DNA from: Pelagibius sp. Alg239-R121
GTDB taxonomy: Bacteria > Pseudomonadota > Alphaproteobacteria > Kiloniellales > Kiloniellaceae
Direction: 5' to 3'
DNA length: 64,000 bases
Assembly: GCF_947331435.1 (NCBI RefSeq)
Contig: NZ_CAMZOF010000008.1
Coordinates: 186,001 to 250,000, forward strand
Every line of letters begins with the position of its first letter. Positions within the stretch are counted from its first letter, which is position 1. Positions 42,798-60,960 of the stretch are shown piece by piece. A program made the translations under genes and the position numbers. The notes under the pieces are model-generated. The model worked only from the letters and a program-made list of their open reading frames with translations. It was not told the DNA's origin and did not search any database.

Positions 42798-42887
42798 ATG
42801 GCAGCCGCGGATTTCATGGCGCTTAGGTGCGTTGCAAGCGCGGCAATTCATACAGTACGAGCAACCGAGGACAGGGATCATGGCTAG
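42798..42887 (+). CDS. Possible 29-aa leader ORF overlapping the tssB start
   Basis: ATG at 42798 follows TTGGAGAGTGTTC, a good ribosome site, and opens a 29-codon frame ([20 protein letters not shown] ...) that ends at TAG 42885-42887, just past the tssB start at 42880. Such an overlap could couple or repress tssB translation. No homology is claimed and it may be chance. Confidence 0.25.
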
Positions 42888-43410
42888 TATTCACAAAAAG
42901 TTGGAGCGCGTTCGTAAGCCGCGGGTTCACATCAGCTACGACGTCGAGACCGAAGGCGCCGTCGTGCAGAAAGAGCTGCCGTTTATTGTTGGTGTCATGG
43001 GGGATTTCTCCGGCGACCCGACAGAACCTCTGGCGTCCTTGAAAGACCGGAAGTTCGTTCAGATTGACAGGGACAACTTCAATCAGGTCATGGGGCGGAT
43101 TAACCCGGGACTGCAGATGAAGGTCGAAAACACACTCAAGGGCGATGACAGTGAAATGGCCGTCGACCTGAAGTTCCGTTCAATCGAGGATTTCGAGCCG
43201 GGCGCTGTGGTCAATCAGGTGCCGGCACTGAAAAAACTTTTGGAAACCCGCAATCAACTGCGCGATTTGATGAGCAAAGTCGATCGCTCGGAAGATCTCG
43301 AAGCTCTGCTGGAAAAGGTTTTGCAGAACAAAGATGCCCTCTCGGAACTCCAAGGTGAGTTGGGTGTCGAAGAACCGGCTGAAGGCGACGAGGATAAAGG
43401 GAGCGAGTAA
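42880..43410 (+). CDS. tssB: Type VI secretion sheath small subunit TssB
   Basis: 176 aa. [60 protein letters not shown] are the diagnostic TssB/VipA segments. It builds the contractile sheath with TssC. I chose the ATG at 42880 with GAGGACAGGGATC before it, giving the canonical N-terminus; the frame is open to 42832 without match. Its stop overlaps the tssC start (TAATG). The C-terminus is acidic ([13 protein letters not shown]). Confidence 0.96.
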
Positions 43411-44909
43411 TGAGCCAGACCGAAACAGATGCCAAAGCCGAAGCCCAAACAACAGAGGCTGAAGGCGAAGTCAGCCTGCTGGAGCAGGCGATTGGCGCAA
43501 CCAAGCAGACTGAACCGGAGCGCGCGACGGAGCTCCTAAAGACGCTGACCGAAGAAGCCCTCAAGGGTACGGTCAGTTACAGCAAAAACCTGACCGTCAC
43601 TTTCAATCAGGCCATTTCGGAAATCGACGCAGCAATGTCGAAGCAGTTGGCTGCGGTCATGCACAACGAGAAGTTCCAAAAACTGGAAGGCTCCTGGCGC
43701 GGACTACATCACCTGGTGATGAACTCCGAAACCAGTGCCACGCTTAAGATCCGGATGATGAACGTCTCGAAGCGTGATCTTTACAAGGATCTGAGCAAGG
43801 CCGTTGAATTCGATCAAAGCCAGACCTTTAAGAAGATCTACGAGAACGAGTTCGGTACTCCGGGTGGCGAGCCCTTTGGTGCGATGATCGGTGACTACGA
43901 GTTTACCAATCATCCCGAGGATGTTGAGCTGCTCAGCAGTATGTCGAATGTGGCGGCAGCATCCTTCGCACCGTTCATTTCGGCCGCGGGTCCAAAACTC
44001 TTCGGGTTTGATGATTACAACGAGCTTTCGAAGCCGCGTGATCTCGAAAAGATTTTCGAATCGATTGAGTATGCGAAATGGCGTTCGTTCCGTGAGAGCG
44101 AAGATTCACGTTTCGTCAGCCTCGTGATGCCACGTGTGCTGGCGCGCCTGCCTTATGGTGAAAACACCAAGCCGGTCGAGGAATTCGGCTTCGAGGAAGG
44201 CGAGATGGATGCCAGCGGTGCAGCCAAGCCGATGGGCCACGAAGAATACACCTGGATGAATGCTTCCTACGTGATGGGCACTAATCTAACCAACGCCTTT
44301 GCACAGTATGGCTGGTGTACCGCCATTCGGGGCGCGGAAGGCGGCGGCCGGGTCGATGATCTGCCTAGCCACGTCTTCATGAGTGACGATGGCGATCCCG
44401 ATCAGAAATGCCCGACGGAGATCGGCATTACCGACCGGCGTGAAGCCGAACTCAGCAAGCTTGGTTTCCTGCCGCTCTGTCACTACAAGAACACCGATTA
44501 CGCCGTGTTCTTCGGTGCTCAGACCACGCAGAAACCAAAGAAGTACGACCGGCCCGAGGCCACTGCGAACGCGGCGATTTCTGCCCGCTTGCCTTACATG
44601 ATGGCGTCTTCACGTTTTGCCCATTATCTGAAAATCATGGCGCGGGACAAGATCGGCTCCTTCATGGAAGCTTCGGATTGCGAAGACTGGCTAAACCGCT
44701 GGATCCTGAACTACGTCAACGGCAATGCCAGTTCCGGTCAGGAAATGAAAGCCAAGTATCCCTTGGCAGAAGCCAAGGTGCAGGTGAAGGAAGTTCCCGG
44801 TGCACCGGGGTCCTATAATGCCGTGGCTTGGATGCGTCCGTGGTTGCAGATGGAAGAGCTCACAACTTCCATGCGGATGGTTGCCAAAATTCCTCAAATC
44901 GGCGGCTGA
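43410..44909 (+). CDS. tssC: Type VI secretion sheath large subunit TssC
   Basis: 499 aa. [54 protein letters not shown], then [20 protein letters not shown] and the conserved [20 protein letters not shown] are VipB/TssC blocks. It pairs with TssB in the sheath. Two tssC-type genes follow each other here, as in the Agrobacterium TssC41/TssC40 pair; this one is the closer to standard TssC. Confidence 0.96.
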
Positions 44910-45027
44910 TCACGCCGATTAAGGGGATGTCCGGCGCCGACGATTGCTGTTGCAGTGGCCGACCGGCTGACGAGAGTCAGCCGGTGGTCCCTCACAGATC
45001 GAAGCCAATCCGGACGGAAGTGCTGTT

Positions 45028-46569
45028 ATGACTCAAGCCGCAGTAACGCTCGCCGGTGTCTCCGCCGCACTTCGGGAGCGGCGTTCCGAGGCCGTGGGCA
45101 GTACGAGCCAGGCAACGGGTGTGCTGGGTGACGGTGACCGGCTGCAGTCCTTTCTTTCGACCTCGCATATCGTCCAGGGTCTGCGCCTGTGGTTCGGCGA
45201 CGGCAAGCTGCTCGAACCGCCGTGTGACAGAAATGCGATCCTGTCGGCACTGGACCGGGATATTGCGTACCTGGACCGATTGCTCTCTGAGCAGGTCGAC
45301 GCAATTCTTCATCATACGCGTTTTCAGAAACTGGAAGCTTCCTGGCGCGGTGTGGATTATCTGGTCGATCAATCCGATGACGAAGCGGGCGTAAAAATCA
45401 AATTGCTCGATATCTCGTGGGCTGAGGTCACGCGGGATATGGAACGTGCGATTGAGTTCGACCAGAGTCAGCTCTTTACCAAGATCTACGAGAACGAATT
45501 CGGTATGCCGGGCGGTGAACCCTATGGCGTGCTGATCGGCGATTACGAGGTCAGGCACAAGCGTGGCAAGAACCATCCGACTGACGATGTCTCGACGATG
45601 AAGTCACTTGCGCAGGTCGCTGCGGCGGCCTTTTCACCCTTGATCGTTGGTGCCGCGCCCGAGTTGCTGGGGCTGGACAGCTTCCGGGACCTGGGGATCC
45701 CACTTGATCTCAGCGCGGTTTTTAAGCAGCCGGAATATGATCGCTGGCGCTCGCTGCGGGAACTGGAGGACTCGCGTTTTATTGGCGTCACTCTTCCGCG
45801 CATCTTGATGCGCTTGCCTTATAGAGATGGGGCGGCGCCGGACTACGGCTTCCGCTATATCGAAACTGTCTCCGGCAATGACGACAGCCGTTATCTCTGG
45901 GGCAGTGCCGCTTATGCTTTCGGTGGTGTTCTGATTAGGAATTTTTTCGACAGTGGCTGGTTCGCCGATATCCGCGGCGCGGCGCGGGATGTGGTCGGGT
46001 ACGGATTAGTGCCTGGACTGACCGTGCAAAGCTTTGGGACGGATCGCAGGGGCATTGCAATCAAGTACTCCAGTGACGTTTCTATTTCTGAAATTCAGGA
46101 GATGGAACTCAGCAATCTGGGTTTCATCCCCTTGAGCAAATGCTCCAACAGTGAATTCTCAGTTTTCTACAGCAATCAGTCAGTCCAGAAGCCGCAAACC
46201 TTTGACCGGGCATCGGCCAATGTGAATGCAAGGCTTTCCGCCATGCTGCAGTACATCCTCTGTGTTTCACGTTTCAGTCATTACGTGAAGGTCATGGGGC
46301 GCGACCGGGTTGGCTCTTTTATTTCTGCCGAGGAGTGCCAGGATTTCCTTCAGCGCTGGCTCCTGAACTACTGCTCGGCCGTCGATGGGGCTTCGCCGGA
46401 ACAAAAAGCGAAGTACCCGCTCCGCGAAGGTCAAGTCGCTGTGCGCGAAACACCGGGGCGTCCGGGCGTGTATGCCTGTACGGTTCATCTGCAGCCGCAC
46501 GCACAGCTCGATCAAGTTATTTCGACGTTCAAACTCGTGACGGAACTTTCTTCCGTCGGTCCCGCTTGA
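45028..46569 (+). CDS. Second TssC-family protein (TssC40-like)
   Basis: 513 aa TssC paralogue. [40 protein letters not shown] and GEPYGVLIGDYEV repeat the TssC signatures, and the C-terminal SRFSHYVKVMGRDRVGSFIS block matches. The N-terminus (residues 1-60) differs and the middle is divergent, consistent with the TssC40 form of Agrobacterium. It may form part of the sheath or baseplate with or instead of the other TssC. The start ATG at 45028 gives MTQAAVTLAGVSAALRERRS. Confidence 0.92.
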   Translation: MTQAAVTLAGVSAALRERRSEAVGSTSQATGVLGDGDRLQSFLSTSHIVQGLRLWFGDGKLLEPPCDRNAILSALDRDIAYLDRLLSEQVDAILHHTRFQKLEASWRGVDYLVDQSDDEAGVKIKLLDISWAEVTRDMERAIEFDQSQLFTKIYENEFGMPGGEPYGVLIGDYEVRHKRGKNHPTDDVSTMKSLAQVAAAAFSPLIVGAAPELLGLDSFRDLGIPLDLSAVFKQPEYDRWRSLRELEDSRFIGVTLPRILMRLPYRDGAAPDYGFRYIETVSGNDDSRYLWGSAAYAFGGVLIRNFFDSGWFADIRGAARDVVGYGLVPGLTVQSFGTDRRGIAIKYSSDVSISEIQEMELSNLGFIPLSKCSNSEFSVFYSNQSVQKPQTFDRASANVNARLSAMLQYILCVSRFSHYVKVMGRDRVGSFISAEECQDFLQRWLLNYCSAVDGASPEQKAKYPLREGQVAVRETPGRPGVYACTVHLQPHAQLDQVISTFKLVTELSSVGPA

Positions 46570-46593: not shown

Positions 46594-47415
46594 ATGGCCT
46601 TAAACGCAAAAGAGCTCTACCAGGCGGGTAATCTGGCCGATGCAATTTCCGCCATGAACGATGAGGTTCGCAGTAACCCAGTCGATCAGGGACGGCGCGG
46701 TTTCCTGGCCGAATTGCTCTGTTTTTCAGGCAATCTGGAGCGCGCTGACAAGCTGCTTGATGTTATTTCGACCCAGGATCCGGACGTGGCTGTCGGCGTC
46801 GCCATGATCCGGCAGTTAATCCGGGCTGATCGAGCGCGGCGCGAACTGTTTAGTGCCGGCCGGGTGCCGGAGTTCCTGGAGAAGCCGTCAGAATCTCTGA
46901 GCAAACACCTTGAAGCAGTGACGCTATTTCGCCAAGGCGATGCCGCATCGGCGGCGAAGCTGCTCGAGGAAGCGGAAGCGGCGCGTTCGAATCTCAGCGG
47001 AAGCAGCAACGACAAGCCGTTCGATGATTTCAGGGACCTGGACGATCCGACGGCTTCTTTCTTTGAAGTTTTAACCTCTACCGGCAAGTATTTCTGGGTC
47101 GAGATGTCGCGCGTCCGGGAAATGGAATTCCACGCGCCAGAACGCCCCATGGACTTGATCTGGCGCCGGGCCTCGGTCGACGTTGTTGAAGGTCCGGACG
47201 GCGACGTTTTTATACCCGCGATCTACGTTCCGCCGGCTGACGCTCTCGAGGAGGGGCAGGAGGTCGACGATCAAGCTCTTCTCGGACGAAGCTCCGACTG
47301 GATCGGTGAAGAGGGCAGTCCTGCACGGGGCGTGGGGCAACGTTGTTTTCTGGTCGGAGATGATCTTGTGCCGATCATGCAGCTTGAATCCCTTCAGTTC
47401 AACGTAGAGGCCTGA
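46594..47415 (+). CDS. tagJ: Type VI accessory protein TagJ (ImpE)
   Basis: 273 aa ImpE-family protein. KELYQAGNLADAISAMNDEV, RSNPVDQGRRGFLAELLCFS, GNLERADKLLDVISTQDP form a short TPR-like N-terminus, and the C-terminal domain contains FRDLDDPTASFFEVLTSTGK, YFWVEMSRVREMEFHAPERP and DLIWRRASVDVVEGPDGDVF. TagJ binds the TssB sheath subunit and ClpV. It sits between the second tssC and tssE, as in the Agrobacterium imp operon. Confidence 0.93.
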   Translation: MALNAKELYQAGNLADAISAMNDEVRSNPVDQGRRGFLAELLCFSGNLERADKLLDVISTQDPDVAVGVAMIRQLIRADRARRELFSAGRVPEFLEKPSESLSKHLEAVTLFRQGDAASAAKLLEEAEAARSNLSGSSNDKPFDDFRDLDDPTASFFEVLTSTGKYFWVEMSRVREMEFHAPERPMDLIWRRASVDVVEGPDGDVFIPAIYVPPADALEEGQEVDDQALLGRSSDWIGEEGSPARGVGQRCFLVGDDLVPIMQLESLQFNVEA

Positions 47416-47422
47416 GGGTCCT

Positions 47423-47917
47423 ATGGCGCGGATCGATCCCGATCAACCTATCCTGCCGTCGGTTCTCGATCGCTTGCTTGACGATCATCCGGACGAAAGC
47501 AGGGATCGGCCGAAATCGCGTGGCCAGCCTTTGCTTGAGTTGCGCAACGCCATTCGCAGGGATCTGGAAGCGCTACTCAATACGCGCCGGCGCCATCTTT
47601 CCTGGCCGTCCGGACTGAAGGAACTTGAGCATTCCTTGATCAACTTCGGTATCCCTGATGTGACACGGATTGATGTTGCGACTCAGCAGGACCGGGAAAA
47701 TTTCTGCCGCGAGCTGGAGTTGGCGATCCGTAGGCATGAACCGCGATTCCAGTCGCTGAAAGTCGTTATGCTCGACAATGCGGAGCCGCAGGACAGGACG
47801 CTGCGCTTTCGTGTGGACGCTTTGGTCTATGCCGATCCGACCCCCGAGGCGATGATCTTTGATTCCAGCCTGGACCCTGTGACCCACAATTTTTCGGTGA
47901 CCAAGCCCAATGGCTGA
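47423..47917 (+). CDS. tssE: Type VI baseplate subunit TssE
   Basis: 164 aa gp25-like protein. ILPSVLDRLLDDHPDESRDR, LLELRNAIRRDLEALLNTRR, then LEHSLINFGIPDVTR and RVDALVYADPTPEAMIFDSS are typical. It forms part of the baseplate with TssF and TssG. The 3' end overlaps the tssF start by 8 bases, which couples the two genes. Confidence 0.94.
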   Translation: MARIDPDQPILPSVLDRLLDDHPDESRDRPKSRGQPLLELRNAIRRDLEALLNTRRRHLSWPSGLKELEHSLINFGIPDVTRIDVATQQDRENFCRELELAIRRHEPRFQSLKVVMLDNAEPQDRTLRFRVDALVYADPTPEAMIFDSSLDPVTHNFSVTKPNG

Positions 47918-49736
47918 TGAACTGCTGCCATATTACAATCGTGAACTCACTTACGTTCGCAAGCTGGCGGCTGAATTCGCCGATGCGCATCCTAAAATCG
48001 CCGGTCGACTAAGATTGAGTGCGGATGCGGTGGAGGATCCGCATGTTGCAAGATTGATTGAGGGATTTGCCTATCTGACTGCGCGCATCCGGCACAAGAT
48101 CGATGACGATTTTCCGGAGCTGACCGATGCCCTGATCGGGGCACTCTATCCGCATTATCTGGCGCCGATTCCCTCAATGTCTATCGTCCAGTTTGATTGT
48201 CAGGCGGATCACACCGGGTCCTATGAGGTGCCGCGACAAACAGAGATCGAGACCGAACCTGTTGGCGGCGAAAGCTGCCGCTTTACGACCTGTTACGATA
48301 CGACGATATGGCCTATCGCCGTGGAAAATGCCAGCCTGTCGGGCCGCCCCTTGGCGGCTCCCGCCAATCCGCGCGGATCCGGTGCCGTGGCGGTCTTGCG
48401 CTTGAGCCTGAAATGCCTGACCAAGGAAATGACCTTTACTCAGCTGGGTCCGGAAACCCTGCGGTTTTTCCTTCGGGGCCAACCTCAGCAGGTGCTGCCT
48501 CTGCAGGAACTGTTGTTCAACAATGCGGTTTCAATTGCTCTGGCTGATGGGGTTTCGGACCCAAATCCCGTCATATTGGGTCCGGATGCGATCAAACAGG
48601 TTGGCTTCGAAAGAGACGAAGGTGTCCTGCCATATCCGGCGCGGTCATTTGTTGGCTATCGTCTCTTGACCGAGTATTTTGCCTTCCCCGAAAAGTTCCT
48701 GTTCTTCGATTTGAGCGGCCTTGAGAGTAAGGTTTTGCTCGATGCCGGCAATAAACTCGAAGTTTTCATTTACCTAAATCGCTCCTCGAACGATCTGGAA
48801 CGCAGCGTTACGGCTGAAACCTTTGCGCTCGGCTGTACGCCGATGGTGAATCTTTTCGAACAACGTGCGGAACCTATTGCGCTGAATCAGACGTCCCACG
48901 AACACCGCGTGGTCCCGGACGCCAGACGCGAAGGTGTCACCGAAGTTTTTTCGATCGACTCGGTCACCATGTCGTCGCCAGACGGCGATACCATGGATGT
49001 GGCGCCGTTCTATTCTCTAAAGCACAGTGGTGATCCGCGCCGCGACCATCGCTTTTGGCAGGCTGCAAGGCGTCCGGCAGGTCAGTTCGACCGTGGTACC
49101 GAAGTCTACCTGTCCATGGTGGATCTCGACTATACACCCTCTATGCCTGCAAACTGGACGGTATCTGTCGGCATCACCGGGTTGAACCGTGACCTGCCTG
49201 GAAAGCTGCCCTATGGGGGTGGCCATCCTTATCTGCAACTGGTGGAGGGAGCTTCTCCGGTCGCCAAGGTCAACTGCCTGACTGCGCCGACCGAAACGCT
49301 GCGCCCGCCGGCTGGTCCGAGGGGATATTGGCGTCTCATCTCTCATCTCAGCCTGAACCACTTATCGATCACCGATGCTGAAAGCGGCGAAGGAGCCGAT
49401 GCGTTGCGTGAAATCCTGAAGCTCTACGATTTCAGGGATTCGGCCGAGACACGCGGCGTGATCGATTCCGTCTTGTCCGTTAAGAACCGGCGGGTCGCCG
49501 CACGCGCTGCGTCGTTGGGCGTGGGTGGGGTTTGCCGTGGCATGGAAGTTGAAATCGAGTTCGACGAGAAGGGCTTTTCCGGTAGCGGCCTATTCCTTCT
49601 GGCACAGGTGCTCGAACGCTTCCTCGGCCTCTATTGTTCCATCAATTCATTCACCCGTCTGACCGCCCGTGTGAAGGGGCGTTCTGGAGTACTGCGGAAA
49701 TGGCCACCAAGAGCCGGCGACCGGACTCTTCTCTGA
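47910..49736 (+). CDS. tssF: Type VI baseplate subunit TssF
   Basis: 608 aa, the usual size. LLPYYNRELTYVRKLAAEFA, DAHPKIAGRLRLSADAVEDP, HVARLIEGFAYLTARIRHKI, DDDFPELTDALIGALYPHYL are the canonical N-terminal blocks, and the C-terminal part has GFSGSGLFLLAQVLERFLGLYCSINSF-like text. It scaffolds the baseplate around the VgrG spike. It overlaps both tssE and tssG. Confidence 0.95.
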   Translation: MADELLPYYNRELTYVRKLAAEFADAHPKIAGRLRLSADAVEDPHVARLIEGFAYLTARIRHKIDDDFPELTDALIGALYPHYLAPIPSMSIVQFDCQADHTGSYEVPRQTEIETEPVGGESCRFTTCYDTTIWPIAVENASLSGRPLAAPANPRGSGAVAVLRLSLKCLTKEMTFTQLGPETLRFFLRGQPQQVLPLQELLFNNAVSIALADGVSDPNPVILGPDAIKQVGFERDEGVLPYPARSFVGYRLLTEYFAFPEKFLFFDLSGLESKVLLDAGNKLEVFIYLNRSSNDLERSVTAETFALGCTPMVNLFEQRAEPIALNQTSHEHRVVPDARREGVTEVFSIDSVTMSSPDGDTMDVAPFYSLKHSGDPRRDHRFWQAARRPAGQFDRGTEVYLSMVDLDYTPSMPANWTVSVGITGLNRDLPGKLPYGGGHPYLQLVEGASPVAKVNCLTAPTETLRPPAGPRGYWRLISHLSLNHLSITDAESGEGADALREILKLYDFRDSAETRGVIDSVLSVKNRRVAARAASLGVGGVCRGMEVEIEFDEKGFSGSGLFLLAQVLERFLGLYCSINSFTRLTARVKGRSGVLRKWPPRAGDRTLL

Positions 49737-50857
49737 TCGACGAACTGTTTCGCGAACCTCACCGCTTCGGGTTTTACCAAGCGGCGAGACTGCTCGAATC
49801 GGCTGAGAAAGCGCGTGCGCGCCGTCGCGGACCCGAAAGCGAATCTGAAGGCGATGGCGAGCATGACAACGGCCATGATGCCCGCCGGAACAGCTATGGG
49901 GTCGTGGGTGAAGATACGCCACCCGGCCTCGAGGCCGTAAGGTTCCGCGCCTTACCTGCTTTACACTTTCCGCCCAACGAAATTAGCCGGGTTGTTCAGC
50001 CGGAAGTCGAAGGCAAGGGAGAGAAGAGCGCTCCTCCGGTGGAGATGACAGTCGGCTTCATGGGGCTCACCGGACCGAGCGGAGTTTTACCTGCTCACTA
50101 TACGGAGACCTTGATTCGCGAGACCCGTTCTAAGAACACGGCTCTACGTGACTTTTTCGACCTCTTTAATCACCGGGTCATATCACTGTTTCTTCGGGCC
50201 TGGGAAAAGTACCGGCTGCCTCAGGTCTACGAGCGCACGGGGCGGGAACGGGAAGATCCGATAACCGCGAGCCTCTTCGCGATGATCGGCTTCGGAGAGA
50301 GCAACCTCCGCAAGCGTCTGGCATTTGACGACCAATTGCTGCTGCACTACGGCGGTCATCTAAGCCATTCGCCGCCGTCCGCCGTCGCTCTGGAAGCTCT
50401 GTTGTCAGATTTTTTCGAACGCAAGGTAGAGATCGACCAGTTTCAAGGCCGTTGGCTTAGCTTGGCAGCGGACGAATGCACGTCACTGCCAGCGAACCCG
50501 GTCATGGACCCGGGTTTCTGCCAGCTGGGTGTCGACGCTGTTGTCGGATCCCGGGTCTGGGATGTGCAGAGCAGTTTCCGGATTCGGATGGGGCCGTTGA
50601 GTTACGCACAATTCTCGGCCTTTATGCCCGAAGGTGGAGAATTGCTGAAGCTCGCCCAGATGACCCGCTTGTTCGTCGGGGCGGACAAGAGCTTTGACGT
50701 ACAGCTGACCTTACGCGGGGACGAAGTCCCATTGTTGCAGCTTTCCAATGAGCAGGAGGGACCTGGGCCGCGCCTGGGATGGAACACCTGGTTCAGTCAG
50801 AGTAGTCAGCGCGGTGACGTTTCCGATGCCGTGTTCTCATTGGACAATTACGAATAA
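49700..50857 (+). CDS. tssG: Type VI baseplate subunit TssG
   Basis: About 385 aa. LIDELFREPHRFGFYQAARL, VRFRALPALHFPPNEISRVV, VGFMGLTGPSGVLPAHYTET and LRDFFDLFNHRVISLFLRAW are TssG hallmarks. I chose the ATG at 49700 inside the tssF 3' end (MATKSRRPDSSLIDELFREP), preceded by GGAGTACTGCGGAA; the frame is open to 49634 but that part is TssF sequence in another frame. It binds TssF as a 2:1 wedge. A charged, low-complexity insert (RARRRGPESESEGDGEHDN) sits near residue 40. Confidence 0.93.
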   Translation: MATKSRRPDSSLIDELFREPHRFGFYQAARLLESAEKARARRRGPESESEGDGEHDNGHDARRNSYGVVGEDTPPGLEAVRFRALPALHFPPNEISRVVQPEVEGKGEKSAPPVEMTVGFMGLTGPSGVLPAHYTETLIRETRSKNTALRDFFDLFNHRVISLFLRAWEKYRLPQVYERTGREREDPITASLFAMIGFGESNLRKRLAFDDQLLLHYGGHLSHSPPSAVALEALLSDFFERKVEIDQFQGRWLSLAADECTSLPANPVMDPGFCQLGVDAVVGSRVWDVQSSFRIRMGPLSYAQFSAFMPEGGELLKLAQMTRLFVGADKSFDVQLTLRGDEVPLLQLSNEQEGPGPRLGWNTWFSQSSQRGDVSDAVFSLDNYE

Positions 50858-50870
50858 ACGGGGAAAGTGA

Positions 50871-52421
50871 ATGAGTTCTTGGGATGCGGGGTATATCTCC
50901 GACATTGAGTATGTGCCCGGCTTTTATAAGCAGCAGGCGCCCGTTTATCTGAATTTTGCCTGCCTGTTAAACGGATACGAGCCGGTCGCGCTCGAGCGCG
51001 GTTTTACCTATTGCGAACTCGGCTGCGGGCAGGGGCTGACCGCGATCATGCTGGCGGCAGCAAATCCGCAGGGCGAGTTTCACGCCATGGATTTCAATCC
51101 CGCGCATATCGTAAGGGCGAACGATCATGTCGCCGAGACCGGACTCTCCAATATCACGTTTCATGAGCGAGGCTTCGACGACTTTGCCGAAGGGCGGGTC
51201 GAGGACTTGCCGCAGTTCGATTTCATCACGATGCACGGTGTCTACAGCTGGATCAACGATGAGAACAAGCAGGCAATCGTAAAGTTTCTCTCCCGCTATT
51301 TGAAACCGGGCGGGGTCGTCTACGTCAGTTACAACTCGATGCCCGACACGACGGCTGGTTTGCCGCTTCAAAGGATGTTTAGCGAATTTGCGCGTCTTAT
51401 GCCTGGGCGCAGTGACCTTCAGGTCGAGCGGGCCTTAAAGTTCGCCACCGAACTGCGCGACAGTGGTTCCCCTTTCTTTGCCGACAATAAACGGCTCGAC
51501 TACCTGATCAAGACCTGGGAAGGCGAAGGCGGGCACTATCTGGCCCACGAGTACCTCAATGCGCATTGGACTCCGCTCTATCACGCAGATGTTGCGAGAG
51601 ACCTGGCGCCAGCCAAGCTATCCTTTGTCGCCACCACCATTCTACTTGAGAACTTTCCCGATCTTTCCCTGAAGCCGGAACAGCGAGAGGTCCTCGACAA
51701 GATTCAGATTCCCGAAATTCGCGAGACCTTCAAAGACTATTTCATTTCGCGCACTTTACGTCAGGACGTCTTCGTCCGTGGTGCGCGCCGGATGAGCCGG
51801 AAACGTCAGGCGCAGCTCTTCACGGAACTTTCGCTCGCCAGTGTGATTCCGCGTCAGGATGCTTCGACGAAAATCTTGTCACCGCGTGGACACATCGAGG
51901 TGGCTGCGGACGTTTATAATGAAGTGTTCGATGCACTTGCCCAGTCGCCATTGTCCATGGGTGAGATTATGAAGCTTCCCTCGATCAGGAATCATCCAGA
52001 TTCAACCATGCAGGAGATCGCAGGCATCCTGATTGGCTCCAATCAGGCACAGCCAATGTGTTCTTCGGCGCGGGGTACGGAAGCGAACAGCTTGCGCGCT
52101 TTTAATCATGCTATGCTCAAGCAGTCGCGCACAGACAACAGTCAATTGTCAGGTGCCTTGGCGTCGCAACGACTCGGAAGTGCGGTTCCGGTCACCAGCC
52201 TCGAAGCTTTCACATATTGGGGATTCTGCGAAGGATTGTCAGACGACATGGACGCATTTGCGTCGGTCGTTTGGCAGACCTACGAGGATCGTGGCGAGCG
52301 CATGCTAAAGGGTGGAAAAGCGATCGAAGGCCGAGAAAACAACCTACAGCACGTATCTGAAAAACTTCAGGAAGTTCTGACTCTCAAGAAGCCGATCTGG
52401 GAGGCGTTGGGTATGCTTTGA
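50871..52421 (+). CDS. SAM methyltransferase with methyltransferase regulatory domain
   Basis: 516 aa. Class I SAM-dependent methyltransferase: motif I YCELGCGQGLTAIML (residues 45-60), acidic motif FHAMDFNPAHIV, and later FDFITMHGVYSW. It is followed by a second domain (from about residue 190) with FKDYFISRTLRQDVFVRGAR, which matches my memory of the methyltransferase regulatory domain. It starts 14 bases after tssG on the same strand and precedes clpV, so it belongs to the T6SS locus although no core T6SS role is known. Target (protein, lipid or small molecule) unknown. Confidence 0.85.
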   Translation: MSSWDAGYISDIEYVPGFYKQQAPVYLNFACLLNGYEPVALERGFTYCELGCGQGLTAIMLAAANPQGEFHAMDFNPAHIVRANDHVAETGLSNITFHERGFDDFAEGRVEDLPQFDFITMHGVYSWINDENKQAIVKFLSRYLKPGGVVYVSYNSMPDTTAGLPLQRMFSEFARLMPGRSDLQVERALKFATELRDSGSPFFADNKRLDYLIKTWEGEGGHYLAHEYLNAHWTPLYHADVARDLAPAKLSFVATTILLENFPDLSLKPEQREVLDKIQIPEIRETFKDYFISRTLRQDVFVRGARRMSRKRQAQLFTELSLASVIPRQDASTKILSPRGHIEVAADVYNEVFDALAQSPLSMGEIMKLPSIRNHPDSTMQEIAGILIGSNQAQPMCSSARGTEANSLRAFNHAMLKQSRTDNSQLSGALASQRLGSAVPVTSLEAFTYWGFCEGLSDDMDAFASVVWQTYEDRGERMLKGGKAIEGRENNLQHVSEKLQEVLTLKKPIWEALGML

Positions 52422-52552: not shown

Positions 52553-55264
52553 ATGGCTGCAGTGGATTTAAAAGCGCTAGTCGGTAAACTGAATACGACC
52601 TGCCGGACATCGCTCGAGAGTGCGGCGGGGCTCACGCTTTCACGCAGCCACTACAATATTGAGATCGAGCATTGGCTCTTAAAGATTCTTGAGAGCAACA
52701 ACACCGACCTGCAACTTCTGCTACGTCATTATGAAATCGATGAATCACGGCTCATTGCAGATCTGACGAAAGTCCTCGACAAAATTAAGACCGGCAACAG
52801 CCGGGCTCCTGCGCTTTCGCCACAAGTCGTGAAGCTTGCACGCGAAGCCTGGGTGCTGGCGTCTCTGCAATTCAGTGCGCCGAAAGTACGGTCCTGTCAT
52901 TTGCTTTGTGCGCTGCTGCTTGACGATGGCCTGTCGCCGATCGCAAGAGAGAGCTCAGCCCAGTTCGCGCGAATCCCCGCTGATGTACTGCAGCGCGACA
53001 TGATGAAGATTGTTGCCGACAGCGACGAAGCTATCGGCGAGGCAGCCGCCGCGGTCAGCGAAGGTGGTGGCGCACCGGCGGCGCCCGCCGGCGCTACCGG
53101 AGGTACGGCTTTAGCGCAGTTCACCATCAACCTCACACAGCGAGCCAAGGATGGTTCGATTGATCCTGTCCTGGGGCGCGATCCCGAGGTCAGGCAGATC
53201 GTCGATATCCTGACTCGGCGACGTCAGAACAACCCGATCCTGACTGGAGAGGCCGGTGTAGGTAAGACGGCTGTCGTCGAAGGTTTTGCTTTGCGCCTTG
53301 CGTCGGGAGACGTGCCGCCCGCTTTGCAGAATGTTGCACTCCATACGCTCGATCTCGGTCTGTTGCAGGCCGGTGCCGGTGTAAAGGGAGAGTTCGAAAA
53401 TCGATTGAAATCGGTCATCGAAGAAGTCAACGCCTCGCCGACGCCGATTATCATGTTTATTGACGAAGCCCACACCCTGATCGGGGCTGGCGGACAAGCC
53501 GGGCAGGGCGATGCGGCCAATCTTCTGAAGCCGGCGTTGGCCCGAGGTGAGCTGCGGACAATCGCCGCGACGACCTGGGCGGAATATAAGAAATACTTTG
53601 AGCGGGATGCGGCTCTGGCACGGCGCTTCCAGGTGGTGAAGGTCGAGGAACCAACCGAGGCCGTTGCCATCGAGATGATGCGCGGGCTGGTTGAGACGCT
53701 GGAGGCCCACCACGGTGTTCGCATTCTCGATGAAGCCGTAATCGATGCAGTTCGATTGTCTCATCGTTACATTCCCGGACGCCAGTTGCCCGATAAGTCA
53801 GTCAGCCTGCTGGATACCGCCTGTGCTCGTGTCAACATGAGCCAGGCCGCCGTGCCGCCAGAGATCGAAGATCGTCGGCGGCGCCTTGAGCAATTGGATG
53901 TGGAGATGGGCATCCTGGAGCGCGAATCCGTAACAGGTGGCGCCCACGCGACAAAACTTGGCGAGATCGCCGAGCAGAAGGAGCGTGTCAGCGGGGAACT
54001 GGCGGACCTTGAGGAGCGTTGGTCCAAGGAACGCGAACTGATTGATGGCATTCGTGACCTCCGCGACAAACTGGAAGCCGCACATGGCGGGAACGGTGCA
54101 TCCGAAGGTGAGGCGGCCAAAGATGGAGCTGAGGAGGGAGCCGAGCCAGCGGAACCGGCGTCCGAAGAGGACATGAAGAAATGGCTGTCCGAACTCGCGG
54201 ATCTGAATTCACAGCTTGATGACCTGCAGGGCGAAGCGCCCTTGTTACAGGTTTGTGTCGACGGTCAGGCCGTGGCCGCCGTTGTGGCCACCTGGACCGG
54301 TATTCCGGTTGGACGGATGGTTTCAAACGAGATACGCCAGGTCCTCAATATCAAAGAAGACTTGGAGAAGCGGATTATCGGGCAGTCTCATGCATTGGAT
54401 GCTATCGCCCAGGCCATGCGGACCTCCCGTGCCAAGCTGACAGACCCGCGTAAGCCAATCGGTGTGTTTCTGTTTTGCGGGACAAGCGGTGTCGGCAAGA
54501 CTGAAACGGCGCTCTCGCTTGCCGAGCTTTTGTATGGCGGTGAACAGAACGTCACGACGATAAACATGTCGGAGTTCAAGGAAGAACATAAAGTCTCCAC
54601 CCTGATGGGATCGCCACCAGGCTATGTCGGTTACGGCGAGGGGGGCGTCTTAACAGAAGCCGTCCGGCGCAGGCCCTACAGTGTCATTCTGTTCGATGAG
54701 ATGGAAAAGGCACACCAGGGCGTGCAGGACGTGTTCTATCAGCTGTTTGATAAGGGTATGTTGCGCGATGGCGAAGGGCGCGATATCGATTTCAAGAACA
54801 CCGTTATAATTATGACGTCCAATGCCGGCACGGATACTATCGCCGGCCTTTGCGACGATCCGGAGACCATGCCCGATGAGGCAGGGTTGGCCGAAGCCTT
54901 GCGTCCGGAATTATTAAAGGTATTTAAGCCGGCGTTTTTGGGACGCGTAACGCTGGTACCGTACTTCCCGCTGAGCGACGATGTCATCAAAGGTATCGTC
55001 AAGCTGCAGCTAAACAGGGTCGCAGCCCGTGTGCGGGAAAACTACAAAGCGGAGTTTAGTTACGACCCCGGTTTGATCGATTCGATTGCCGAGCGTTGCA
55101 AAGAAAATGAGAGCGGGGCTCGGAACATCGAAAGTATTCTCTCCCGAACTATGTTGCCTGAAATGTCAGCGTTGTTCCTTGAGCGTATGGCTGAAGGCGG
55201 CGAAATCACAGACGTCAGTGTTTCGGTAGACGAAAGCGGCGGTTTTGAGTACCGTATCGGGTAA
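52553..55264 (+). CDS. clpV: Type VI AAA+ ATPase ClpV (TssH)
   Basis: 903 aa. The N-terminal Clp-N domain is followed by AAA1 with Walker A GEAGVGKTA (around residue 230) and Walker B IMFIDEAHTLIGAGG, a middle coiled coil (about 430-560, Glu/Lys/Arg-rich), and AAA2 with GTSGVGKTETA (around 643) and VILFDEMEKAH. It disassembles contracted TssB/C sheaths for reuse. The 131-bp gap upstream suggests its own promoter. An alanine/glycine-rich linker (GGAPAAPAGATGGTA) separates the N-domain from AAA1. Confidence 0.97.
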   Translation: MAAVDLKALVGKLNTTCRTSLESAAGLTLSRSHYNIEIEHWLLKILESNNTDLQLLLRHYEIDESRLIADLTKVLDKIKTGNSRAPALSPQVVKLAREAWVLASLQFSAPKVRSCHLLCALLLDDGLSPIARESSAQFARIPADVLQRDMMKIVADSDEAIGEAAAAVSEGGGAPAAPAGATGGTALAQFTINLTQRAKDGSIDPVLGRDPEVRQIVDILTRRRQNNPILTGEAGVGKTAVVEGFALRLASGDVPPALQNVALHTLDLGLLQAGAGVKGEFENRLKSVIEEVNASPTPIIMFIDEAHTLIGAGGQAGQGDAANLLKPALARGELRTIAATTWAEYKKYFERDAALARRFQVVKVEEPTEAVAIEMMRGLVETLEAHHGVRILDEAVIDAVRLSHRYIPGRQLPDKSVSLLDTACARVNMSQAAVPPEIEDRRRRLEQLDVEMGILERESVTGGAHATKLGEIAEQKERVSGELADLEERWSKERELIDGIRDLRDKLEAAHGGNGASEGEAAKDGAEEGAEPAEPASEEDMKKWLSELADLNSQLDDLQGEAPLLQVCVDGQAVAAVVATWTGIPVGRMVSNEIRQVLNIKEDLEKRIIGQSHALDAIAQAMRTSRAKLTDPRKPIGVFLFCGTSGVGKTETALSLAELLYGGEQNVTTINMSEFKEEHKVSTLMGSPPGYVGYGEGGVLTEAVRRRPYSVILFDEMEKAHQGVQDVFYQLFDKGMLRDGEGRDIDFKNTVIIMTSNAGTDTIAGLCDDPETMPDEAGLAEALRPELLKVFKPAFLGRVTLVPYFPLSDDVIKGIVKLQLNRVAARVRENYKAEFSYDPGLIDSIAERCKENESGARNIESILSRTMLPEMSALFLERMAEGGEITDVSVSVDESGGFEYRIG

Positions 55265-55362: not shown

Positions 55363-55839
55363 ATGGCGATTTACGTAAAGTATGAAGGTATAGACGGCGA
55401 TGCGACTCATCAGGATCACAAAAAATGGATCCAGGTTGAGTCGATGCAGTGGGGCACAGGCCGTGCGATCATGACGACCACCGGCAGCACGACCGGCCGT
55501 GAAGCCTCCGAGCCTTCGGTCAGTGAAGTCACCTTCGCTAAAGTGCTTGATTCTTCATCTGCGCATCTTTTCACCGAAGCGACCACCGGTGTCGTCGGCA
55601 AAAAGTGCGAGATCCACCTCGTCAGCACGGGTAGCCCTGGAGAGCTATATTTGACCTATGAGCTGACCAATTCCCTTGTGTCGGGATACAGTGTCAGCAG
55701 CGGTGGTGATCGCCCCAGTGAATCGGTGAGCGTCAACTTCACCAAGGTCGAAATGAAATACACGCCTTTCGACGAAAACCATAAGGCGGGCTCGCCGATT
55801 CCGGCCGGTTACGACATGACGACGACCAAGAAGGTCTGA
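55363..55839 (+). CDS. hcp: Hcp tube protein (TssD)
   Basis: 158 aa Hcp1-family protein. MAIYVKYEGIDGDATHQDHK, KWIQVESMQWGTGRAIMTTT, SEPSVSEVTFAKVLDSSSAH, then SVSSGGDRPSESVSVNFTKV are the typical blocks. It forms hexameric rings stacked into the inner tube and can carry effectors. TTTTGGAGGTAATCAGACC upstream of the ATG at 55363 is a strong ribosome site, consistent with the high expression Hcp needs. No C-terminal effector extension. Confidence 0.97.
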   Translation: MAIYVKYEGIDGDATHQDHKKWIQVESMQWGTGRAIMTTTGSTTGREASEPSVSEVTFAKVLDSSSAHLFTEATTGVVGKKCEIHLVSTGSPGELYLTYELTNSLVSGYSVSSGGDRPSESVSVNFTKVEMKYTPFDENHKAGSPIPAGYDMTTTKKV

Positions 55840-55960: not shown

Positions 55961-57880
55961 GTGGCTTGGGAACAAGAAGGCAGGCTCCTGACCATCGAAA
56001 GTCCTTTGGGGAAAGATAAGCTTTTGCTGTCTTCTCTTGAAGGTGAGGAGCAGTCGTCGCGCCTGTTCCGTTTCGATCTCGAGCTGCTTTCTGAAGATCT
56101 AGAGATCGACCCCAACAAACTGCTCGGAAAGAACGTTTCTTTTAGCGTTAGGCTATGGGGTACGGATGAGCTCCGCTGGTTTGACGGCATTGTCAGGCGT
56201 TTTGCTGCTGGCGGGATCGCAGGTCAGGGCCTGCGCAGTTATCGAGCGGAAATCGTTCCCAAGTTTTGGCTTTTGACCCGAACGTCTGATTGTAGAATTT
56301 TCCAGGAAAAAACCGTCAAGACGATCATTGAAGATGTCTTTTCCGACGCCAGTTTTTCTGATTATGAATTTGATATAAACACAGATTCTCCGACGCTTGA
56401 ATACTGTGTTCAATTCAACGAAAGCGATTTCAATTTCGTATCGCGTTTGATGGAGCGTTTCGGATTTTATTATTTTCATAAACACGAGCAAGGCAAGCAC
56501 ACACTGGTGATCGCCGATCATAAGGGCGCATATGAAGATGCGACCCAATCGGAGGTCGAGCACAGACCAGGCAACGTTTCGGGTGGCATAATTAACTCCT
56601 GGGTTCCCAGCCACGAGTTCAAGACCGGAAAGTGGGCACAGCACGATTATAATTTCACTACCTCGGCGACGGAATTGAAGGGGCAGGCGAATACGGTCCT
56701 GAAGAATTCGGAATTTAAGAAGTATGAGATCTATGAGTACCCGGGTCTCTATTCGACCACCGGCGAAGGAACCGCGGCGACCAAGCTGAAAATGGAAACC
56801 GAAGAGTCTTCGTACAAGACGGTTGAAGGCGGTGGCGACTGTGCGAGTTTTTCACCCGGCTACAAATTTACAATTTCCAAACATGAGATCGATTCTGAGG
56901 TTGATCAGGAATATGTCCTGTCGCGGGTCATTCACCATGGGCGAGACCCGACGTTTTTGGGCGGCGCCGGTCAAACCGCGAGCTATGCCAACGAGATTGC
57001 CTGCGTGCCGAGCGACATTGTTTTGCGCCCGGAACGCATTACGCCCATCCCCAGAGCCAATGGCCCCCAAAGTGCGGTCGTCGTTGGTCCGTCGGGAGAG
57101 GAAATCGATGTCGATGAACATGGCCGCGTCCATGTGCAGTTTCATTGGGACCGCTATGGCGAAGATAATGAAAAGAGTTCCTGCTGGCTGCGCGTAACGC
57201 AGATGTGGGCAGGTAAAAACTGGGGCACCGTTTTTACGCCGCGTGTCGATATGGAAGTCATCGTCAGTTTTCTTGATGGCGACTATGATCGGCCGCTGGT
57301 CACTGGCTGTGTCTACAACGACCAGAACAAACCACCCTACAGCTTACCTGCAAATAAGACTCAGAGCGGGATTAAGAGTCGCAGTTCGAAAAGCGGTGGT
57401 GCAGAGGATTTCAACGAGCTTCGGTTCGAGGACAAGAAGGGCGAAGAAGAGGTCTATTTTCATGCGCAGAAGGACTTTATGCGCAAGGTTGAGAACGATG
57501 ACACGCTGGAAGTCGATCACGACCAGAAAATCACGGTTACGAACGACCGGACGATCGAAGTTTCGGACGGAAATGACAAACTGACAGTTGCTACAGGAAA
57601 CAGGACGACGACCGTTTCCAAGGGAAATAAAAAGCTGTCGGTCAAGCTGGGCAACATCGACGTTAAGGCCGACGCCGGAAAAATTACGGTCGAGGCCATG
57701 CAGTCGATCGAATTGAAGGTTGGGTCCAATACAATCAAAATCGATCAAAGTGGTATTAAGATCAAAGGCTTGATGGTCACCGTTGAGGGCAGCATCAAGA
57801 CAGATGTGAAGTCGCCGATGACGACGGTTGAGGGATCTGGAATGCTGACCGTCAAAGGTGGAATAGTTATGATCAATTAA
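55961..57880 (+). CDS. vgrG: VgrG spike protein (TssI)
   Basis: 639 aa with gp27/gp5-like architecture. LLSSLEGEEQSSRLFRFDLE begins the gp27-like part, GEEIDVDEHGRVHVQFHWDR and MWAGKNWGTVFTPRVDMEVI cover the core, and the C-terminus is the gp5-like beta-helix (DKLTVATGNRTTTVSKGNKK, SVKLGNIDVKADAGKITVEA). It ends GMLTVKGGIVMIN with no extra effector domain. The start is GTG 55961; AGGGGG is 14 bases upstream, so the ribosome site is loose. The next gene is on the same strand after 89 bp. Confidence 0.95.
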   Translation: MAWEQEGRLLTIESPLGKDKLLLSSLEGEEQSSRLFRFDLELLSEDLEIDPNKLLGKNVSFSVRLWGTDELRWFDGIVRRFAAGGIAGQGLRSYRAEIVPKFWLLTRTSDCRIFQEKTVKTIIEDVFSDASFSDYEFDINTDSPTLEYCVQFNESDFNFVSRLMERFGFYYFHKHEQGKHTLVIADHKGAYEDATQSEVEHRPGNVSGGIINSWVPSHEFKTGKWAQHDYNFTTSATELKGQANTVLKNSEFKKYEIYEYPGLYSTTGEGTAATKLKMETEESSYKTVEGGGDCASFSPGYKFTISKHEIDSEVDQEYVLSRVIHHGRDPTFLGGAGQTASYANEIACVPSDIVLRPERITPIPRANGPQSAVVVGPSGEEIDVDEHGRVHVQFHWDRYGEDNEKSSCWLRVTQMWAGKNWGTVFTPRVDMEVIVSFLDGDYDRPLVTGCVYNDQNKPPYSLPANKTQSGIKSRSSKSGGAEDFNELRFEDKKGEEEVYFHAQKDFMRKVENDDTLEVDHDQKITVTNDRTIEVSDGNDKLTVATGNRTTTVSKGNKKLSVKLGNIDVKADAGKITVEAMQSIELKVGSNTIKIDQSGIKIKGLMVTVEGSIKTDVKSPMTTVEGSGMLTVKGGIVMIN

Positions 57881-57969: not shown

Positions 57970-58548
57970 ATGACAGCACTCACGAAAGTCCAAGCCTCGA
58001 CAGCGGCCGAAGTCTGCCGTCTGTACGAGTTGGACCCAGATGCTGCAGCGCTGCTCGACGACACGTCAACGCCGGCTTCGTTTATCGAGCGGTTGATGGA
58101 AGAGCAGCGGTTTGCCGATGCTGCGCGTTTCCTCGCCTATGCCCTGCCGAAGCGTGAGGCCGTATGGTGGGCTTGCCTCTGCGCCCGTGCGGTGACGAGC
58201 GGTGAGGTGTCGCCGGACAATCTCGCGGCATTGGATGCCGCCGAAGCCTGGGTCTATAAGCCGGTTGATGAGAACCGCCGGAAAGCCATGGCGCTTGCTG
58301 AAAAAACACCGATGGATACGTCAGCAAGCTGGGCCGCTGTGGCAGCTTTCTGGAGCTCCGGGTCCATGGCGCCAGAGGATGCGCCGGTTGTGCCGCCGGG
58401 CGAAGAGCTGACGGGCGCTGCGGTTTCTGGCGCTGTTATTCTTGCCGCTGTTCAGACCGAACCCGAGAATGCGCCAGAGAAGTACGCGAGATTTTTAACT
58501 CAGGGCCTCGATGTTGCCCGTGGAGGCAGCGGCCGGGATGGCGACTAG
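57970..58548 (+). CDS. Unrecognised 192-aa protein of the T6SS locus (possibly DUF6931)
   Basis: I do not recognise this gene with confidence; it may be DUF6931. It is predicted soluble and helical, Ala-rich, with FIERLMEEQRFADAARFLAY, LPKREAVWWACLCARAVTSG and AEAWVYKPVDENRRKAMALA as its clearest segments. Two W-rich turns (VWWACLC and ASWAAVAAFW) stand out. No signal peptide or membrane helix. It lies between vgrG and fha, where adaptors, effectors or immunity proteins often sit, so an adaptor or accessory role is a fair guess but only inferred from place. Confidence 0.7.
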   Translation: MTALTKVQASTAAEVCRLYELDPDAAALLDDTSTPASFIERLMEEQRFADAARFLAYALPKREAVWWACLCARAVTSGEVSPDNLAALDAAEAWVYKPVDENRRKAMALAEKTPMDTSASWAAVAAFWSSGSMAPEDAPVVPPGEELTGAAVSGAVILAAVQTEPENAPEKYARFLTQGLDVARGGSGRDGD

Positions 58549-58654: not shown

Positions 58655-60223
58655 ATGATACTGAGAATGACAATTGTCGGTGACGTCAGACCGACGGATC
58701 CGCAGGATATCAGCCATAGTTTCGGTGCCCAGGGCGGCAGGATCGGACGCGGGCTGAGCAATGAATGGGTTCTGCCGGACCCTCATATGTCGAAAAACCA
58801 CTGCTCTGTCCTCTATCGCGACGGACAATTTGTGCTCACCGACACCTCGACAAACGGCGTCTTTGTTAATGGCTCGCCTGAGCGCATGGAGCGGGGATCG
58901 ACGGTCACGCTCGCCGATGGCGACAGCCTGAAAATCGGCGACTACGAGATCAGACTCGAAGTTGACGAATCAGCAGAGTCTGGCGATTTGGCTCCAGCCG
59001 AAGATCTTGATTCCTTCGCGCAGGTTCTTGGTGTGGGAATTGGCGAGGATCTCGATCCATTTGAAATCAATTCAAAGCAACAGGATAAGGAAGCGCCTGC
59101 TCCTGGGCCGGCTGCATCACCTGATGTCTTGGGTGTGGGAGCGAATGATCCCTTTGATGATCTCCTGGACCAGCCGGCGACCGGGCCATCCCGCGAGGAT
59201 CCTTTGTTCGCTGGCACCGGTGTATCGGGCGCCGTGATTCCGGAAGACGACGATCTGTTTGACGACCTTTTGCCGAGCGGTGCCACGGGGCGGGAAGCCC
59301 CTGTGGAACCCGTTCCTTCGGAACAGGATCATGTGCCGTCGGCGAATGAATTCTTCCAACCGCCGAAGGTATCGGGCGATCAGATCCCCGATGACTGGGA
59401 CGCCGATGATTTGTTGGGTGGAGCGCCGGAAACACCGGCACCTGCACCACCGGCCAGCCCTCCACCGGCCAGCCCTCCACCGACCAGTCCTTCATCAACC
59501 AGTCCTCCGCCGCGGCCAGAACCTGTGATGCCCGCGCAGGGGCAATCTGCTGCGCCTGAACCGGTTCCACCGCCCGCTCCGCCGCAGCCAGCACCGCAGG
59601 CGCCGGCGGCAGTCTCTCCGCAGATGCCGGTTTCGGACGCGGAGGCGGCTCTGTTACGCGCGTTCCTGGAAGGCGCCGAGATGACCGAGTTGGATATTCC
59701 CGAGGCTGCAAGGATTGAGCTTATGCGGACGGTCGGACAGACCTACCGCGATCTGGTCCGCGGGCTCGTCGAGGTTTTAAAGGTGCGCCAGACGATCAAG
59801 AACGAATTTCGGCTTGATCAAACCATGATCCGTGCAGACTCGAACAATCCTTTGAAATTTACCGTAAATGTTGAAGAAGCCCTGAAAGCGATGCTTAGCA
59901 ATACCAGCCGCGGATATCTGACGCCGCGACAGGCAGTGGACCAGGGGTTTGCGGACATCAAGGCGCATCAGATTGCGGTCATGGCGGGCATGCAGGTTGC
60001 CTTACAAGCCTTGCTGACGCGTTTCGATCCAAAGGAACTGGAAGATCGCCTGACGGAAAGTTCGGTCCTGGATAAGGTTCTGCCGGGCTCGAAAAAAGCG
60101 CGCTATTGGGAACTCTTCACGCAGCTTTATGCGGAAATTGCAAAGGAGGCTGAAGACGATTTTCATGGTCTCTTTGGCCGGGAATTCGCACGCGCTTACG
60201 AAGAACAGGCGAAAAAGGTGTAA
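58655..60223 (+). CDS. tagH: FHA-domain scaffold protein (TagH/Fha)
   Basis: 522 aa. The N-terminal FHA domain (residues 1-105) has the phosphothreonine pocket: GRIGRGLSNEWVLPDPHMSK then NHCSVLYRDG and TDTSTNGVFVNG. A long acidic and proline-rich linker (about 110-325) holds a 15-bp tandem repeat. The C-terminal TagH domain begins around VSDAEAALLRAFLEGAEMTE and includes LKFTVNVEEALKAMLSNTSR. It links threonine phosphorylation to T6SS activation. No PpkA kinase or PppA phosphatase gene is in the window. Confidence 0.93.
   Translation: MILRMTIVGDVRPTDPQDISHSFGAQGGRIGRGLSNEWVLPDPHMSKNHCSVLYRDGQFVLTDTSTNGVFVNGSPERMERGSTVTLADGDSLKIGDYEIRLEVDESAESGDLAPAEDLDSFAQVLGVGIGEDLDPFEINSKQQDKEAPAPGPAASPDVLGVGANDPFDDLLDQPATGPSREDPLFAGTGVSGAVIPEDDDLFDDLLPSGATGREAPVEPVPSEQDHVPSANEFFQPPKVSGDQIPDDWDADDLLGGAPETPAPAPPASPPPASPPPTSPSSTSPPPRPEPVMPAQGQSAAPEPVPPPAPPQPAPQAPAAVSPQMPVSDAEAALLRAFLEGAEMTELDIPEAARIELMRTVGQTYRDLVRGLVEVLKVRQTIKNEFRLDQTMIRADSNNPLKFTVNVEEALKAMLSNTSRGYLTPRQAVDQGFADIKAHQIAVMAGMQVALQALLTRFDPKELEDRLTESSVLDKVLPGSKKARYWELFTQLYAEIAKEAEDDFHGLFGREFARAYEEQAKKV
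59447..59506 (+). repeat. Four 15-bp tandem repeats in fha
   Basis: Units at 59447-59461, 59462-59476, 59477-59491 and 59492-59506: two exact CCACCGGCCAGCCCT copies, then CCACCGACCAGTCCT and TCATCAACCAGTCCT. They encode Pro-Pro-Ala/Thr-Ser-Pro type units in the linker of the FHA protein. In-frame slippage here would change linker length without a frameshift. Confidence 0.9.
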
Positions 60224-60498: not shown

Positions 60499-60960
60499 GT
60501 GAGATTGATCTATTGCCTGTTCGCGGCTTTGCTTGTGCTTGGCGGCTGCGCGGAAAAGAAACCGTCTCCAACGGTGATCGACCTCTCGATCTCCGCCGCA
60601 CTCAACATTAATCCTAATGCACAGGGGCGGGCGTCCCCGGTTGTACTTCGGGTGTATCATCTGACATCGCCAAATGCCTTTGAGGAAGCCGATTTCTTTC
60701 AATTGTTTGAACAGGACGCAGCGATCCTGGGCCAAGACATGATCGGCCGCGAAGAGATTATCGTTACGCCTGGGGCAGCGCAGAAAGTTTCTCAGGAGGT
60801 TGGGCCTGAAGTGCGGTATTTGGGCGTAATTGCTGCATATCGCGAGACAGAGACATCTGTATGGCGCGCAATGGGGGATGTGGTTCCAGAGGAGATTAAT
60901 GGCTACGCCGTTCAAATCGACGCTCTTGCAGTATCCTTGGCGAAATCCGAGGACGATTAA
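60499..60960 (+). CDS. tssJ: Type VI outer-membrane lipoprotein TssJ
   Basis: 153 aa lipoprotein. The signal peptide (MRLIYCLFAALLVLGGC) ends in the lipobox LGGC with Cys around residue 17. The TssJ/VasD domain shows SAALNINPNAQGRASPVVLR, VYHLTSPNAFEEADFFQLFE and LGVIAAYRETETSVWRAM. It anchors the TssL-TssM membrane complex to the outer membrane. The start is GTG 60499 behind GGGGAGAACAAAT. Confidence 0.94.
   Translation: MRLIYCLFAALLVLGGCAEKKPSPTVIDLSISAALNINPNAQGRASPVVLRVYHLTSPNAFEEADFFQLFEQDAAILGQDMIGREEIIVTPGAAQKVSQEVGPEVRYLGVIAAYRETETSVWRAMGDVVPEEINGYAVQIDALAVSLAKSEDD

Follow-up and report, generated by a model that had tools for sequence, protein, structure and literature searches.

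A predicted PKMT/KmtA-family methyltransferase gene conserved next to tssG in type VI secretion clusters of alphaproteobacteria

The nearest characterised enzymes to the methyltransferase considered here (MT) methylate outer-membrane adhesins and not parts of the type VI secretion system (T6SS). In Rickettsia, PKMT1 and PKMT2 (OM PKMT R) have OmpB as substrate, AdoMet is contacted by Asp 102/74 and His 146/118 (PKMT1/PKMT2), and Leu103/Ile130 of PKMT1 (Leu75/Ile102 of PKMT2), near the SAM site, affect OmpB binding (accessible text of PMC11784438); no T6SS link is reported in the text available on these enzymes. KmtA of Acinetobacter Tol 5 (OM PKMT A) methylates more than 130 lysines of the trimeric adhesin AtaA. 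According to the same accessible text, the Leu/Ile residues of OmpB recognition are likewise not conserved in KmtA, the target lysines of PKMT and KmtA follow no sequence consensus, Rhodobacterales members are reported only in the KmtA cluster, which is marked by a charged motif (Lys282-Arg295 of KmtA) and by C-terminal blocks, and T6SS is unmentioned in the account of KmtA (PMC11784438). Few bacterial proteins are known to be methylated at multiple lysines.

On the secretion side, post-translational control is described mainly as phosphorylation in the available part of a T6SS regulation review (PMC10482370). The threonine phosphorylation pathway (PpkA, PppA, TagF and Fha/TagH) is a cluster-encoded, protein-modifying accessory module. 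A methyltransferase-domain protein, Tsb1 of Bradyrhizobium sp. LmicA16, has been linked to a rhizobial T6SS; we compare it by description, and unlike our proposal for MT it is put forward as an effector in the part of the report available (PMC10879055). Looking for a Tsb1 counterpart in the one genome family tried, we found other T6SS-linked MTs and no named match. Two other candidate precedents were discarded as being of a different kind: the Re87 gene of R. etli, which belongs to a putative effector/immunity module and is a truncated homologue of O-methyltransferases, and P. fluorescens Tfe7, a proposed effector homologous to rRNA methyltransferases. In the open-access literature searched (most subscription papers being outside reach), we found no paper on a PKMT in T6SS clusters, nor one on protein lysine methylation in T6SS. 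As far as these papers go, a T6SS-dedicated branch of the known PKMT/KmtA family may be undescribed, the Tsb1 report being possibly related.

The window analysed here is a stretch of 64,000 nucleotides from Pelagibius sp. Alg239-R121 (NZ_CAMZOF010000008.1, positions 186,001 to 250,000). It carries T6SS genes in the order tssA-tssB-tssC1-tssC2-tagJ-tssE-tssF-tssG-MT-clpV-hcp-vgrG-DUF6931-tagH-tssJ-tssK-tssL (Table 1), and the cluster, which is complete, runs on past the window end with tssM-tagF-pppA and a ppkA-type kinase. Since ppkA, pppA, tagF and tagH are all in this cluster, the threonine-phosphorylation module is present. The MT ORF is intact, with 516 codons from an ATG start to a TGA stop and zero internal stops, and it is the single PF10119 gene in the whole genome. 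The preliminary description put it 14 bases after tssG and before clpV on the same strand; placement and strand are right, while the distance from the tssG stop to the MT ATG is 13 nt. The gap of 131 nt between MT and clpV is not close. No promoter- or terminator-like site was seen in either gap by a simple consensus scan, which is weak evidence. Because the 3' neighbour varies among lineages and the 5' neighbour is nearly always tssG, MT is probably the final gene of the tssA-tssG operon.

Table 1. Features of the T6SS cluster in the window (positions from the first letter of the window).
Feature	Coordinates	Strand	Support
tssA	41526..42650	+	PF06812
tssB (sheath small subunit)	42832..43410	+	PF05591
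tssC1 (sheath large subunit), lysine-rich	43410..44909	+	
tssC2 (second sheath large subunit)	45028..46569	+	PF05943, PF18945
tagJ/impE	46594..47415	+	PF07024
tssE (gp25-like)	47423..47917	+	PF04965
tssF	47910..49736	+	PF05947
tssG (baseplate), overlaps tssF	49700..50857	+	PF06996, 1.9e-98
MT, predicted PKMT-type protein methyltransferase gene, 516 aa	50871..52421	+	Pfam, alignment, predicted fold
clpV (tssH)	52553..55264	+	AAA_2, ClpB_D2-small, AAA_lid_9
hcp (tssD)	55363..55839	+	PF05638
vgrG (tssI), lysine-rich	55961..57880	+	
DUF6931 protein gene	57970..58548	+	PF22011, 2e-55
tagH/Fha (FHA domain)	58655..60223	+	
tssJ	60499..60960	+	PF12790
tssK	61044..62378	+	TIGR03353
tssL (DotU + OmpA)	62447..63832	+	

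In the MT protein, Pfam recognises a methyltransferase domain (residues 43-156) and MethyTransf_Reg (PF10119, 222-303, 1.3e-24). The motifs ELGCGQG (motif I, 49-55), D74, HGVYSW (122-127) and HEYLN (226-230) were identified, together with a C-terminal middle/CTD-like region. The best PDB matches by phmmer were R. typhi PKMT2 (8e-20, residues 10-303) and R. prowazekii PKMT1 (1e-17), and the homology with PKMT1/2 covers the AdoMet and dimerisation regions. With the AlphaFold model (pLDDT 88, pTM 0.90), the top eight Foldseek chains were all PKMT1 or PKMT2, with 536-552 alignment columns for 516 residues and TM of 0.64-0.70. Next came the H3K79 methyltransferase Rv2067c, and generic methyltransferases cover far less of the protein. 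Identity to the PKMT chains in the fold alignment is 16-18%, and the rmsd of 6-7 Å indicates that the domains are oriented differently from those of the Rickettsia enzymes. Apart from these orientations, the four-domain PKMT fold extends along the full length of the predicted model.

The residues of the SAM site are conserved. D74 and H122 align with Asp74 and His118 of PKMT2; like Y223, H226 and E227, they do not vary among 22 homologues. An HGVxSW-like motif is common to MT and the Rickettsia enzymes, its nearest solved relatives. The Leu/Ile pair of the Rickettsia type (cluster R), which affects OmpB binding there, is replaced in the alignment by F75 and F102. Given the PKMT1/2 sequence and fold matches, the preserved SAM Asp/His and the Phe at the OmpB-recognition positions, comparative sequence analysis and the predicted model assign MT to the PKMT/KmtA family but not to its Rickettsia type. 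It likely belongs to the KmtA type, given its kinship with Rhodobacterales copies, which the accessible account places in the KmtA cluster, and KmtA, compared by description, also does without the Leu/Ile residues. The earlier reading of a class I methyltransferase with a probable regulatory domain holds for the class and for MethyTransf_Reg, but the protein is not simply regulatory, having the PKMT/KmtA architecture as a whole. This whole-length architecture makes protein lysine methylation the specific prediction.

The order tssG-MT-clpV is kept in three congeners, with MT identity of 77-80%. MT lies 3' of tssG in every congener, in Shinella, Mesorhizobium and Aureimonas, and in about nine further sampled genera, the order being tssG-MT-kinase in Shinella and Mesorhizobium and annotated as tssG, MT and protein kinase in Aureimonas AU20. 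A class survey of 387 genomes recovered seven genomes from five family codes in which MT is the next gene downstream of tssG and co-directional with it. Further orders include tssG-MT-clpV (G476), tssG-MT-kinase (G460, G449 and G450), tssG-MT-hcp (G605) and tssG-MT (G829), and altogether the pair was seen in genome families f1, f21, f41, f48, f56, f62 and f65 besides Shinella, Mesorhizobium and Aureimonas. In Rhodospira/Roseospira, MT is shifted within the T6SS cluster, as MT-kinase-clpV (with a PpkA kinase) or tagF-MT-pppA. Like T6SS accessory (tag) genes, MT is thus located in the cluster, co-directional and conserved across lineages. The preliminary description held that the close spacing argues against chance, and the adjacency is indeed conserved well beyond chance over many lineages, which makes a T6SS-tied role likely. 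The same order, which it proposed to look for in other genomes, was recovered widely for tssG-MT and only in part for clpV, whose position next to MT is lineage-specific and often taken by a PpkA-like kinase.

Within the family, the T6SS-linked MT copies essentially make up a single branch. When MT copies are labelled by presence "in a T6SS cluster", the maximum-likelihood tree of 63 rows requires 3 label changes and that of 71 rows 2, whereas shuffled labels need 17-19; 0 of 500 shuffles was as low as observed. Support for the T6SS-type branch is 100/99 in the 63-row tree, and the separating branch has 82/79 in the 71-row tree, which contains one very long branch, so that the split from the other branch is good but not perfect. 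This other branch (roseobacters, Azospirillum, Rhizobium and others) was never beside a T6SS in our sample. In the TssF tree, MT is confined to one clade (100/100), where it occurs in 11 of 21 members. The MT gene is under purifying selection: its pN/pS among congeners is about 0.18-0.20, similar to the values for tssG and vgrG, although only the sense of this ratio is safe since synonymous sites are near saturation. Congruence between MT and Tss distances gives r of 0.59-0.77 (Mantel p of 0.02-0.06), weak support from six clusters only.

The linkage has limits. Considering the whole MT family across the class, 20 of 69 genomes with TssG have a member vs 54 of 318 without TssG, a mild co-occurrence (Fisher p of 0.03), and the T6SS-type branch is therefore the proper basis for judging the linkage. 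Even there, a few orphan copies exist: one in a genome where no TssG was found (G335), second loci in G187 and G835, and one in Azospirillum cavernae. The wider family is consequently not confined to T6SS-bearing genomes, and the T6SS-type branch has these few exceptions. The preliminary description had stated that occurrence independent of T6SS would speak against its proposal, and this is what we found for the family at large and for the few T6SS-type orphans. In addition, MT is missing from roughly half of the T6SSs of this subtype and from each of the eight other genomes with a T6SS found in the order, which means that MT is not required for T6SS. MT is an optional T6SS accessory and not a core part.

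Among the alternatives to a T6SS substrate, MT could resemble KmtA and the Rickettsia PKMTs in methylating a protein of the outer membrane or surface, with the T6SS operon providing co-expression only, for example if the surface were modified when the T6SS weapon is made. The closest characterised relatives do methylate surface proteins, and the family tracks secreted or surface proteins, since non-T6SS relatives are found beside RTX/type I secretion genes (Rhodospirillum rubrum plasmid) and, in Azospirillum, among glycosyltransferase genes clustered with one for an RTX-type calcium-binding protein. We consider this unlikely, however, because the T6SS-linked copies have a branch of their own and remain in T6SS clusters even after moving, and no surface-protein gene accompanies MT in the readable clusters.

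Another possibility is that MT is itself a T6SS effector that would methylate target-cell proteins after injection, as has been proposed for Bradyrhizobium Tsb1. This would agree with the description of Tsb1 as a possible T6SS effector with a methyltransferase domain (available part of PMC10879055) and of the structural relative Rv2067c as secreted into macrophages (available part of PMC10739865). Nevertheless, MT is in the structural block after tssG and not behind vgrG, hcp or PAAR in most clusters, and no immunity-like partner recurs, the next gene being clpV, a kinase, hcp or vgrG; location and missing partner make the effector role less likely. Pfam also shows methyltransferase domains only, with no effector marker domain, and we regard this role as quite improbable.

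We give just as little credit to MT being carried along in the operon as a methyltransferase of unrelated function, with a small molecule, a lipid or RNA as substrate. The N-terminal domain on its own also matches generic methyltransferase models, BioC, UbiG and ArsM among them, far below the cut-offs, and orphan copies exist, but the full-length predicted-fold match is specific to protein lysine methyltransferases and the linkage recurs across many lineages and positions. Finally, a recent chance insertion next to tssG without functional meaning might be suspected from the many T6SSs of the same subtype or order without MT and from the mild class-wide co-occurrence, but it is very improbable in view of the recurrence of tssG-MT in many genome families and the 2-3 label changes where 17-19 are expected.

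We suggest instead, as the probable reading, that MT is a lysine methyltransferase of the PKMT type, dedicated but optional, with at least one T6SS protein as its substrate. A cytoplasmic enzyme of the PKMT/KmtA family would have become an accessory dedicated to a single alphaproteobacterial T6SS subtype, one with tagJ and two tssC genes, where its gene would in most lineages close the tssABCC-tagJ-EFG block. With SAM as methyl donor, the enzyme would most likely modify several lysines on T6SS proteins of the producing cell, with a presumed effect on assembly or firing. The likeliest substrates would be proteins of the tube (Hcp), sheath (TssB/TssC1) and spike (VgrG), all rich in lysine; a membrane-complex or regulatory protein, modified in step with the PpkA/PppA/TagF/TagH threonine-phosphorylation switch, seems a less likely target. 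Genes of this switch adjoin MT in several clusters, where MT is a neighbour of ppk or is flanked by tagF and pppA. The two modules would differ in chemistry, methylation instead of phosphorylation, and MT is the rarer.

Within the window, TssB, TssC1, Hcp and VgrG have 6.6-7.8% lysine vs 2.4-4.5% in the other T6SS proteins. Lysine content was rejected as an indicator of the substrate, as these four proteins are equally lysine-rich where MT is absent, with no clear difference. Across ten T6SS proteins, no lysine column significantly separates MT-bearing from MT-lacking clusters; as PKMT/KmtA enzymes have no sequence consensus, this is no refutation of T6SS-protein methylation. The modification of sheath, ClpV or effector proposed earlier could not be traced to any such substrate. 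Targets are known for a minority of PKMT-family enzymes, and since MT keeps to T6SS clusters, the list of possible substrates is short. A whole branch tied to T6SS clusters across many alphaproteobacteria suggests that some T6SSs are methylated.

A full-length degenerate MT paralogue was found in two congeneric genomes, divergent beside tssA (L140:3527-5035 in G187 and L159:12361-13869 in G835). It has lost the GCG of SAM motif I, the HGVYSW His of the SAM site and the HEY motif, while the reading frame is kept with 86% identity. Judging from these losses, it is likely a pseudoenzyme in the T6SS cluster. More tentatively, this T6SS subtype might be controlled by lysine methylation (of the tube, sheath, spike or membrane complex) as a second post-translational layer beside threonine phosphorylation, with the dead copy beside tssA having a structural or regulatory part in one lineage; we see this as possible, though somewhat doubtful.

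Some additional observations concern the clusters themselves. In G408 (L073:6697-11078), tssF, tssG and MT are each seemingly split into two frames, due to sequencing error or to a decaying cluster. Adjoining the orphan T6SS-type MT of G187, one 509-aa protein (L074:7526-9055) has a VipA (TssB) followed by a VipB (TssC) domain, and no other T6SS genes were recognised nearby. The DUF6931 gene, between vgrG and tagH in the window, recurs 3' of vgrG in many MT-type T6SS clusters, and its product is a possible, unrecognised T6SS accessory protein. The tssC pair (43410-46569) is unequal: TssC1 is lysine-rich and 97% conserved in the genus, and TssC2 is arginine-rich and more variable. The tssC1/tssC2 pair recurs throughout the MT-bearing T6SS subtype.
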